Shown here piece after piece: positions 20,257 to 41,911 of a stretch of 50,123 nt of DNA; within the stretch, counting starts at the first letter, position 1; every line of letters begins with the position of its first letter. This DNA is from Candidatus Omnitrophota bacterium. Its GTDB lineage: Bacteria; Omnitrophota; Gorgyraeia; Zapsychrales; Zapsychraceae. Both the position numbers and the translations under genes were made by a program. A model generated the notes under the pieces. The model made no database searches. It was not told the DNA's origin and was given only the letters and a program-made list of their open reading frames with translations. The stretch covers positions 1-50,123 of the forward strand of contig JAHFGL010000013.1 of the NCBI GenBank assembly GCA_023247445.1. Reading direction: 5' to 3'.

Positions 20257-20285
20257 TTGAGGTGTCGCAATGTGCGATACCTTGA
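20257..20285. repeat. Short palindrome related to the ORF6N-gene palindromes
   Basis: AGGTGTCGCA (20260-20269), a 3-nt ATG loop and TGCGATACCT (20273-20282) pair with one G-T mismatch. The flanks continue partly as TTGA/TTGAA. Layout and core (TCGCA-3 nt-TGCGA) match the palindrome at 39943-39969. Confidence 0.45.
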
Positions 20286-36414: not shown

Positions 36415-36684
36415 TCAGAGACGGGACAATAACTTTACATAATCATCGTGTGAACCTATCCAGAACCAAATTATTTCATTTTCATTTTGGATCCCAATGG
36501 CACGGTACCCAATATTGATTCGAACGGAATAGATGGGTTTTGTGGAGTGAACACGTTTTAAACGTAGACTAGGATAAAAGGGGTCTTTTTTAAATTGTTT
36601 ATATGCGTCTTTGGCTTGCTGCTGTGTCTTCTTTGGTAATTCGGCAAAGGCTTTTCGAAAACGTTCGGTTGTATGAGAAATCAT
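36415..36684 (-). CDS. RelE/ParE-superfamily toxin
   Basis: 89 residues. FRKAFAELPKKTQQQAKDAYKQFKKDPFYPSLRLKRV followed by YSVRINIGYRAIGIQNENEIIWFWIGSHDDYVKLL has the RelE-like fold pattern (two helices, then a beta-sheet with a conserved Arg and a C-terminal hydrophobic strand). Such toxins usually cleave ribosome-bound mRNA. It overlaps the upstream antitoxin gene by 4 nt, the usual arrangement of type II modules. Confidence 0.82.
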   Translation of the reverse strand: MISHTTERFRKAFAELPKKTQQQAKDAYKQFKKDPFYPSLRLKRVHSTKPIYSVRINIGYRAIGIQNENEIIWFWIGSHDDYVKLLSRL

Positions 36685-36899
36685 AAACTGTCAAGATCAA
36701 GTGGGCGAGTTTTCTTTTTTTTGTGCTCCTTCAATGCTTCATCCGCTAGTTTTTCTAGCGTATTCTCAGACTCAGCAAAAGCTTTGTCCCAACTTTTCTC
36801 AGAAGAAAGCTCTTTTAATAACCATTTCGCTAATGCATTTTGTTCTACTTCAGGAAGTTTTTCTACCTGAGCGAATACTTTCTCTAATAGTTGTGTCAT
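36681..36899 (-). CDS. Antitoxin of the RelE-type toxin
   Basis: 72 residues from ATG 36899, preceded by GAGAGG 8 nt upstream (a GTG three codons earlier is also open). The protein is acidic and helical; LLEKVFAQVEKLPEVEQNALAKWLLKEL is typical of small antitoxins paired with RelE-like toxins. The C-terminal half, rich in Lys and Glu, would wrap the toxin. A -10 like TATACT lies about 20 nt upstream. No obvious operator palindrome. Confidence 0.78.
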   Translation of the reverse strand: MTQLLEKVFAQVEKLPEVEQNALAKWLLKELSSEKSWDKAFAESENTLEKLADEALKEHKKKKTRPLDLDSL

Positions 36900-37000
36900 A
36901 ATTGTCACCTCTCTTGCGTCAAGTATAACATTTGATTATTGTAAAATCCATTTCTTAAATTAATTCTTAATTGATTTTTATTCCATGCCATCGCACAAAT

Positions 37001-39309: not shown

Positions 39310-39864
39310 TTAAGCGGTGCGCCATTTAATGGAGCAGCCCATGGAAGGCATTTGTTTAGGCGAGATTGCTAAGTTTTTGGAATGATTGGTCAGGGCTTCT
39401 TTTAATTCTTCACGGATGACTTTCTTCTCTTCTTGCCAGTTGTCATCAATACGGCCGTGGTAGATGAGCTCTTTATTTTCATTAAATAGATAAATGTCCG
39501 GTGTACATTGAGCCTTAAACGTTTTTGCGATCGCTTGCGTATCATCCACTAAGTAGGGAAAGTTAAGCCCCCACTCTTTGATTTTCTTTTTCATCTCTAC
39601 TGGTGAATCTTTTGGATAGTCTGGATGAATATTCGGGTTAATAGCAACAGTGTTGATCTTTATCTCTTTGGCATAGTTGGCTAATCGAATCACGCGCGGC
39701 CAGACAGCTAAGGCATACGGACAATGATTACAGGTAAAAATTACGAGGAGTCCGCGCTGCCCAAATGCTTCACTTCCCTTACATTCTTTACCACTCGGAT
39801 CTTTTAAATTAAATTCCGGCATCTTGGTGCCTAAGGGAATTAAGATGGATTCTAGTAGAGCCAT
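39310..39864 (-). CDS. Thioredoxin-fold redoxin with CNHCPY motif
   Basis: 184 residues. FNLKDPSGKECKGSEAFGQRGLLVIFTCNHCPYA has the AhpC/TSA-redoxin layout with a CxxC pair, followed by INPNIHPDYPKDSP and TPDIYLFNENKELIYHGRIDD. The family is widely found as a cytosolic thioredoxin-like protein of unknown client. GGAAAG precedes ATG 39864, and a promoter lies at 39901-39928. No signal peptide. Confidence 0.85.
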   Translation of the reverse strand: MALLESILIPLGTKMPEFNLKDPSGKECKGSEAFGQRGLLVIFTCNHCPYALAVWPRVIRLANYAKEIKINTVAINPNIHPDYPKDSPVEMKKKIKEWGLNFPYLVDDTQAIAKTFKAQCTPDIYLFNENKELIYHGRIDDNWQEEKKVIREELKEALTNHSKNLAISPKQMPSMGCSIKWRTA

Positions 39865-39942: not shown

Positions 39943-39969
39943 TTCAAGCTCGCAATTTGCGATCTTGAA
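39943..39969. repeat. 27-bp palindrome, extragenic copy downstream of the ORF6N gene
   Basis: TTCAAGCTCGCA - ATT - TGCGATCTTGAA: 12-nt arms with one mismatch and a 3-nt loop. It has the same 12-3-12 layout as the palindromes inside the neighbouring ORF6N gene. Confidence 0.75.
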
Positions 39970-40004
39970 GCATAAATTTTAATATCGCAAAATAAGGCTT
40001 TAAA

Positions 40005-40625
40005 TTATTCGTATTTAACATGAAATCCGATACCACGATTTGGTTTTACATCTTCTTTCATTAAGCGGCGGATGGCTTCTAGAATAATTTGAATTTCTTC
40101 GTCATGCTTGCCAACTTTAAGTTCAAGGTCTTTTAATTTTAAACCCAATTCTTTGTGAGTGGTTAAAGCCTCTCTAATTAAAACAAATGCCCGCATGATC
40201 GCGATATTTACCAAAACAGCCCGGCGACTTTTTAGAACACTTGATAACATTGCTATCCCTTGTTCCGTAAAAGCGTAAGGGAGATATTTTAGGTGGTGTC
40301 CTTGTCTTTTCAAGATCACAAATTGTGACCTTGAATTAGAGCTTTTTTTGTTTAAGATCACATTTTGTGATCTTAAAACTATGTCTTTTTCGTTTAAGGT
40401 CACAATTTGTGACCTTAAAGAATCAGCTTCCTCCCATGTCAATTGAAACATAAAATCATCAGGGAATCTCTCTAGATTGCGTTTAACTGCTTGGATTAAA
40501 ATTCTAGGTTCAACTTGGTAGATTTCGGCAAGATCAGTGCTCAACATCACTTTGTGCCCGCGTAGAATAAATATTTTTTCTTTAATAATTTCAAGTGAAG
40601 CCGATTTTTCTTTATTCTTTTTCAT
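40005..40625 (-). CDS. ORF6N-domain DNA-binding protein with palindrome-encoded internal repeats
   Basis: 206 residues. The N-terminal ORF6N domain (~8-125; IFILRGHKVMLSTDLAEIYQVEPRILIQAVKRNLERFPDDFMFQL, then YLPYAFTEQGIAMLSSVL) is of a type frequent in phages and in free-living candidate lineages. The usual single LRSQ motif is expanded to three units (LRSQIVTLN, LRSQNVILN, SRSQFVILK; residues ~70-110), each encoded by a palindrome. The C-terminus is coiled-coil-like. It presumably regulates transcription; targets unknown. A GGGG-rich hairpin directly before ATG 40625 could hide its ribosome-binding site. Confidence 0.85.
   Translation of the reverse strand: MKKNKEKSASLEIIKEKIFILRGHKVMLSTDLAEIYQVEPRILIQAVKRNLERFPDDFMFQLTWEEADSLRSQIVTLNEKDIVLRSQNVILNKKSSNSRSQFVILKRQGHHLKYLPYAFTEQGIAMLSSVLKSRRAVLVNIAIMRAFVLIREALTTHKELGLKLKDLELKVGKHDEEIQIILEAIRRLMKEDVKPNRGIGFHVKYE
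40311..40333. repeat. Intragenic palindrome 3 of the ORF6N gene
   Basis: CAAGATCACA..TGTGACCTTG around a 3-nt centre, with one mismatch. On the coding strand it spells SRSQFVIL. Confidence 0.8.
40351..40377. repeat. Intragenic palindrome 2 of the ORF6N gene
   Basis: TTTAAGATCACA (40351-40362), TTT, TGTGATCTTAAA (40366-40377): perfect 12-nt arms. It encodes LRSQNVILN. Confidence 0.85.
40393..40419. repeat. Intragenic palindrome 1 of the ORF6N gene
   Basis: TTTAAGGTCACA (40393-40404), ATT, TGTGACCTTAAA (40408-40419): perfect 12-nt arms. It encodes LRSQIVTLN. Confidence 0.85.
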
Positions 40626-41881: not shown

Positions 41882-41911
41882 TCCAATTCAGCCGGCACCG
41901 GCTGAATTGGA
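41882..41911. repeat. Perfect 30-bp palindrome downstream of the ABC exporter
   Basis: Arms TCCAATTCAGCCGG and CCGGCTGAATTGGA with a 2-nt loop. No T-tract follows on either strand, so it is not a classical terminator. It lies 46 bp beyond the permease stop. Confidence 0.7.

Follow-up and report, generated by a model that had tools for sequence, protein, structure and literature searches.

Introduction

Autoregulatory helix-turn-helix (HTH) repressors with palindromic operators include lambda CI and Cro, TetR and the controller proteins of restriction-modification systems. They resemble the ORF6N proteins described here in having a dyad-symmetric site, in the co-evolution of helix and operator and in probable autoregulation; however, their operators are located in promoters, whereas in the ORF6N genes the constant site is part of the sequence that codes for the DNA-binding domain. 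For the latter arrangement the nearest precedent is lambda O, a DNA-binding protein with specific sites inside its own coding sequence, where four 19-bp direct iterons and an A-T rich segment within the O gene are used for replication (PMC4488673). The lambda O sites are replication iterons, however, and not a single palindrome in the DNA-binding domain as in ORF6N, and to our knowledge no family-wide residue-base code has been described for lambda O. The Rickettsia palindromic elements are also palindromes read in frame inside protein-coding genes, but these elements occur in unrelated genes, whereas those of ORF6N are restricted to ORF6N loci and vary with the specificity of their host protein.

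ORF6N is included in the ‘Bro network’ of Bro-N and KilA-N phage and virus proteins (PMC10111431). The domain is rarely named in the open literature that was searched, and one herpesvirus use of the string evidently means something else. That search, which left most subscription papers uncovered, returned no palindrome in ORF6N genes, no comparable intragenic operator and no recognition code. HTH autoregulators with operators are already known, as is one classic precedent for self-contained sites; within the literature searched, the combination of an operator placed in the DNA-binding domain throughout a family and a code that can be read from sequence appears to be new.

Results

An ORF6N gene with three palindromes in its coding sequence

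The window is the entire 50,123-nucleotide stretch of Candidatus Omnitrophota bacterium DNA that was analysed. The window ORF6N protein matches the Pfam profile with 107.8 bits (curated cut-off 27.8), its residues 17-130 corresponding to profile positions 2-86 of 86. Palindromes are typed below by their half-site letters. The features concerned are the following, in window coordinates.

40005-40625, minus strand: gene for the ORF6N protein, 206 aa (Pfam PF10543, E 3.5e-31)
40479-40508, minus strand: codons of the predicted recognition helix, residues 40-49, with code residues R41, I42 and Q45 (from the AlphaFold HTH helix 40-49 and the columns covarying with the palindrome)
40393-40419, minus strand: intragenic palindrome 1, TTTAAGGTCACA-AAT-TGTGACCTTAAA, perfect, TCACA type as Gln45 predicts
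40351-40377, minus strand: intragenic palindrome 2, TTTAAGATCACA-AAA-TGTGATCTTAAA, perfect, TCACA type
40309-40335, minus strand: intragenic palindrome 3, TTCAAGGTCACA-ATT-TGTGATCTTGAA, one arm mismatch, TCACA type
39943-39969, no strand: extragenic palindrome, TCGCA type, one mismatch, 35 nt past the ORF6N stop codon
39901-39928, minus strand: promoter-like site TTGAAA-16-TATAAT (11/12, consensus match only), before a redoxin-like gene at 39310-39864
20257-20285, no strand: lone intergenic palindrome, AGGTGTCGCA / AGGTATCGCA, TCGCA type, about 100 nt upstream of the ubiE start codon

Each intragenic palindrome is 27 bp long, with 12-nt arms and a 3-nt centre. The preliminary description of this locus had reported three in-frame palindromes of this layout, a fourth just downstream and a weaker fifth at 20257-20285, and all of this held, the fourth being extragenic and the fifth intergenic. 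Its claim of a tripled LRSQxVxL unit held only in part. The encoded peptides are SLRSQIVTL, VLRSQNVIL and NSRSQFVIL, with RSQxVxL as the common unit, and the leading L is missing from the third.

The window gene is a lone chromosomal gene with redoxin, Fur, Nramp-like and PEP-CTERM protein genes as neighbours. A palindrome of this design is absent upstream of it, so an own-type operator in its own promoter was not met. The palindrome at 39943-39969 lies just upstream of the promoter-like site of the redoxin-like gene, with its centre approximately 62 nt before the predicted transcription start. Elsewhere in the window, a perfect palindrome of another design, with 12-nt arms (CCAATTCAGCCG-GCAC-CGGCTGAATTGG), is found in intergenic DNA at 41883-41910, and two small overlapping genes on the minus strand (36415-36684 and 36681-36908), a ParE-like toxin gene (PF24732) preceded by a 75-aa ORF, are likely to form a toxin-antitoxin pair. 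Finally, the PADLOC profiles for the candidate defence gene PDC-S05 match the window protein (E 3.3e-53) and so cover the ORF6N family; the defence assignment is a PADLOC candidate only, and there is no evidence here on a defence role.

The palindromes of this genome are located at ORF6N loci

With up to three mismatches allowed, the consensus given in the preliminary description had 4 matches in the window, against 0.08 expected by chance. This consensus, AAGRTCACA, is nevertheless too narrow, as the specificity letters differ gene by gene. There are six ORF6N genes in the genome. In each, a palindrome occupies the same position, flanked by the FMFQL strand and the PYAFTEQG motif, with half-site letters that differ among the six paralogues (TCACA, TCGCA, TGCCA or TTCCA). 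The genome-wide site count that the preliminary description had called for was run with the core pattern GGTNNCANNNTGNNACC (GGTNNCA-N3-TGNNACC), which has 7 sites in the 2.29 Mb genome, 7/7 at ORF6N loci; the reversed core pattern, used as a control, has 1 site. Detailed palindrome scanning covered 442 kb of the 2.29 Mb, with stretches of 392 kb taken. It recovered six perfect CA-N3-TG palindromes with 10-nt arms, all at ORF6N loci, and the sole copy of the design away from these loci was the one at 20257-20285. Chance palindromes are ruled out by the window expectation, the genome pattern counts, the 442 kb scan and the codon shuffles described below. A repeat spread through the genome is likewise ruled out, the sites being almost exclusively at ORF6N loci in the core-pattern count and in the 442 kb scan.

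The palindrome is conserved as DNA across the family

Relatives were collected from the same class, from 80 loci of approximately 20 phyla (including Bacteroidota, Elusimicrobia, Acidobacteria, Verrucomicrobia, Planctomycetota and Desulfobacterota), from the rest of the phylum, from plasmids and from viral contigs. The comparison among related ORF6N genes, also called for in the preliminary description, found the palindrome in 158/162 distinct genes of the first set (~20 phyla) and in 64/64 held-out genes; 19 genes have two to four. Nearly all loci missed by the gene parser also have one, and an expected-type half-site is retained in three genes without a palindrome and in one with a poor palindrome. 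The family design is TTGARRTNNCA-N3-TGNNAYYTCAA. On a Treponema saccharophilum plasmid (L277), the ORF6N gene has a variant half-site, TTGAGGTCGAA, and is situated between genes for a DNA methyltransferase and a type I restriction subunit S.

When codons were resampled synonymously, the real palindrome scored above all 40 shuffles in 149/162 genes (mean 11.8 vs 4.4). As a control, only 10/118 random ORFs of the genome beat all of 20 codon shuffles, against 35/40 ORF6N genes; Phage_pRha, tried as a control family, returned only ORF6N genes again. No base of the half-site varies more than the one at -3 (A 41%, G 31%, C 25%), and still only 1/158 genes leave it unpaired. Arm mismatches comprise 24 G-T and 30 A-C, with no G-U preference. 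Moreover, translation passes through the palindrome in either of two frames: one yields LRSQIVTS and the second EVVANCDHL or ELVTNCDRF (VVANCDH, VVTNCDH and LVPNWHQ are among the second-frame peptides), and 113 distinct heptapeptides occur at its centre. Arms that vary yet stay paired, that beat codon shuffles, that lack a G-U bias and that are read in two frames show that it is the DNA, and not the peptide, that selection keeps at the palindrome. Purely protein-level conservation of LRSQ is ruled out by the codon shuffles and the second reading frame, and the lack of a G-U bias favours duplex DNA over an RNA hairpin.

Residues of the predicted recognition helix predict the half-site letters

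The mutual information between the dinucleotide at (-4,-3) and the protein columns peaks at the predicted recognition helix, where the top two columns reach an excess of 1.21 and 1.06 nats (median 0.01). With this helix numbered T-1-2-L-N-5-6-V-K-R-N, the residue at position 5 goes with the half-site as follows: Gln with TCACA, Glu with TCGCA, Arg with TGCCA, Lys with TTCCA and Leu with TTTCA. The correspondence at (-4,-3) is complete for Gln and CA (53/53), Glu and CG (44/44) and Lys and TC (14/14). Arg is found with GC in 19 genes and with alternatives in others (TC 3, CC 2, GA 2, AC 1), and Leu with TT in 3 and TG in 1. Two further positions behave similarly. Lys at position 1 is accompanied by G(-6) in 129/129 genes, against 15/72 without Lys, and Arg at position 2 by G(-3) in 65/65, against 3/136 without Arg. 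The code is right in 140/142 training genes. Arg and Lys are known to prefer G, Gln A, Glu C and aliphatic residues T, and the pairs of the code agree with these preferences.

The prediction rule was fixed before further regions were fetched and before any held-out locus was read. It was right in 60/64 held-out genes, whereas shuffles gave a mean of 19 and a maximum of 31. Two of the misses (L233 and L252) have two palindromes each, and the finder was centred at the wrong place; the other two, L218 (Gln with CG) and L262 (Leu with TG), are real exceptions. L262, like L157 (also Leu with TG), fits only after the code is extended. In a second new set, from viral contigs, 23/24 readable genes were right when Leu/TG and the Arg alternatives were counted as allowed. 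The code also holds in the second reading frame, where the peptide differs. Tree-independent pairs on well-supported branches, taken from a tree built without the helix and without the palindrome, all run in one direction (Gln/CA 7:0, Glu/CG 11:0, Lys1/G(-6) about 11:0). Most other branches of the tree are weak, so its figure of 85 switches is not to be read as an exact number.

Structural models place the code residues in a helix-turn-helix

AlphaFold models of the protein of L172, an Algoriphagus relative with a single palindrome (pLDDT 82.6), and of the window protein (78.9) both contain an HTH, and the code residues sit in its second helix, at residues 36-45 in L172 and 40-49 in the window protein. 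In the latter model, helices 29-36 and 40-49 are followed by a strand, a helix and a strand. The palindrome codes for the end of the post-HTH helix and the flexible loop before the next strand, and the tripled loop of the window protein contains segments with pLDDT < 50 (78-82 and 96-106). A PDB sequence search found no structure of an ORF6N protein, and a search of NCBIfam returned no model. The best PDB fold matches are the DNA-binding domains of SKI/SNO/Dachshund proteins, and these are weak (E 0.17, TM 0.59 by target length). In the AlphaFold models ORF6N has the HTH fold with a recognition helix, although the PDB matches are weak, and its specific DNA binding is inferred from the residue-base code.

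Extra palindromes in genes and flanks

All 19 genes with two to four palindromes keep at least one of their own type. A further 73 palindromes flank ORF6N genes at a distance of up to 300 nt. Of these, 49 are no more than 200 nt upstream of a start codon, and some form arrays with a spacing of 24-42 nt. The flanks of L033, L239, L263, L006 and L229 have two to four adjacent 27-bp palindromes of mixed specificity types, mostly upstream. Only 24/73 flanking palindromes are of the type of the gene they flank, which is no better than shuffles (upstream 19/52, with 15.2 ± 3.1 expected; downstream 5/21, with 6.3 expected). This means that simple operator duplication is not the whole story, and the own-type counts lend no support to flanking copies being operators of the gene beside them. 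Another idea, that the copies are debris of ORF6N genes, fits a few cases only (e.g. L139 and L188).

The genome encodes Glu, Gln, Arg and Lys types, and a possible reader exists for each flanking site; with all four types present this would be expected anyway and is not evidence. The palindrome at 39943-39969 is of the TCGCA type, so its expected reader would be a Glu-type paralogue (e.g. L006 or L007) and not the product of the window gene, in the absence of binding data.

A related arrangement in Bro-N genes

Bro-N genes of the same phylum were picked as a negative control and proved to have a palindrome at the analogous position, after an HTH-like helix. It scores at least 6 in 39/40 genes, and in 34/40 it beats all 40 codon shuffles (8.7 vs 4.2). 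The half-site sequences differ from those of ORF6N, and the half-site type goes with the helix type (YWRVLKKRL with GTTACA, YWRKLKERL with GTGACA). One example is in the same genome as the window (G000:C27:22844-23125, in L381). The sample is small, consisting of 40 genes that are partly close relatives (loci L336-L405), and a Bro-N recognition code is no more than a possibility suggested by it.

Discussion

The palindrome of the ORF6N genes, its conservation at the DNA level, its covariation with specificity residues and the predictive power of that covariation are shown by the data above. The explanation that fits best is that ORF6N proteins are HTH dimers that bind the palindrome in their own gene, most probably for autoregulation. 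We regard this as likely, with both binding and regulation inferred and no binding, expression or structure data at hand. In the proposed mechanism, the cognate site, approximately TTGARRTNNCA-N3-TGNNAYYTCAA, is embedded in the codons of the protein's own DNA-binding domain, in those for the flexible loop just after the HTH, and a dimer would sit on the palindrome, each half-site taking one recognition helix. The variable bases would be read by helix positions 1, 2 and 5: Lys1 would contact G(-6) and Arg2 G(-3), while position 5 would read (-4,-3), with Gln specifying CA, Glu CG, Arg GC, Lys TC and Leu TT. At position 5, Gln is predicted to contact A(-3), Glu C(-4) and Arg G(-4). Dimer binding is an inference that we hold with high confidence even without binding data, and direct base contacts are also inferred.

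Placing the site inside the coding sequence means that protein and site are inherited and transferred together; the two would diverge in step and never travel apart. Negative autoregulation is the most likely role: a dimer bound about 210 nt after the start codon would block or modulate transcription of the gene that encodes it. Autoregulation by the intragenic site is inferred, with moderate confidence and no expression data, from the contrast between own-type sites, kept by every gene about 210 nt in, and the inconstant promoter copies. Palindromes beside the genes, mostly no more than 200 nt upstream and often of another type, would allow paralogues to regulate each other and some neighbours. 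Repression and cross-regulation have less support than dimer binding, and the present inference, made from sequence alone, does not separate repression from activation or from some other use of binding at the palindrome.

The preliminary description had offered two readings of the locus. The first, that the protein binds the sequence, has strong support, in the absence of binding data, from a recognition code that succeeded in two held-out tests; its extension to autoregulation through the gene's own coding DNA is still an inference. The second, that the gene hosts an expanding palindromic repeat, is partly right, as 19 genes contain at least two palindromes and additional copies flank many loci. 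What comes first, however, is that almost all genes of the family have one palindrome, and the elements do not spread to unrelated genes.

Among the alternatives, the one that survives best is that the palindrome is a site for replication, recombination or transposition of a mobile element, and not an operator. In its favour are the lambda O precedent, with an origin within the O gene (PMC4488673), the tyrosine integrases or recombinases that adjoin ORF6N genes on several plasmids (L273, L275, L281 and L282), and the observation that two loci of one genome share little beyond the gene itself (L099 and L104, both in genome G025, where the common part is the gene plus ~20 nt upstream at ~86% identity, which would fit movement or conversion of the gene on its own). 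Against it, the window gene is chromosomal and solitary, with redoxin, Fur, Nramp-like and PEP-CTERM genes around it, neither a replication partner nor a catalytic domain was seen, and there is usually a single palindrome and not a set of iterons. Judged by these neighbours and by a single palindrome per gene as the family rule, the window gene does not qualify as a self-contained origin of the lambda O kind. We consider this alternative unlikely.

A selfish palindromic mini-element of the Rickettsia kind, inserted in a tolerant loop and expanding there, with the host protein incidental, would account for the extra in-frame copies in 19 genes, the flanking arrays with 24-42 nt spacing and the disordered loop. 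It would not account for one fixed place in virtually every ORF6N gene of ~20 phyla, nor for the lack of sites in other genes of this genome (7/7 core sites at ORF6N loci, with one intergenic copy elsewhere in 442 kb). The letters of the palindrome are, moreover, predicted by the helix of the same gene; this code largely refutes the model, which is very improbable.

An mRNA hairpin acting in attenuation or translational control has in its favour that arms of at least 12 pairs with a 3-nt loop would fold, and that one copy is terminator-like, although on the strand opposite the gene. Set against this are the mismatches without G-U preference (24 G-T, 30 A-C), an Rfam search in which no family reached its curated score, and the consideration that pairing alone would not tie bases to a recognition helix, and there is very little to recommend the idea. 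Covariation internal to the protein, in which helix residue 5 packs on loop residues and the palindrome follows from the amino acids, draws on the type-specific peptides of the common frame (SQxV, SQxA, CQxG, FQxG), but can be all but dismissed on the grounds that the same code holds in the second frame with a different peptide, that the palindrome disappears when the same peptide is recoded by codon shuffling and that the loop is flexible in the AlphaFold models.

A bolder version of the autoregulatory reading is that self-encoded targets are a general ORF6N/Bro-N design, an address tag in each reading frame, and that mixed arrays of tags form a network of cross-repression or incompatibility. 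This is offered tentatively, and we would lean slightly against it at present. If it were true, residents would silence incoming or neighbouring genes of matching type, much like a phage immunity system carried inside the repressor gene.

The arrangement also poses an evolutionary question, in that the same DNA serves as codons and as a site read by the product, with both changing together. A residue-to-base code as clean as this is uncommon among bacterial regulator families, and every gene is its own training example, as it contains the site. The family may thus offer natural HTH proteins, ready for use, whose specificities are orthogonal and predictable. For a very widespread domain of unknown function, sequence alone now gives a predicted DNA target member by member, and if Bro-N shares the design, the targets of many phage and mobile-element regulators would become readable.
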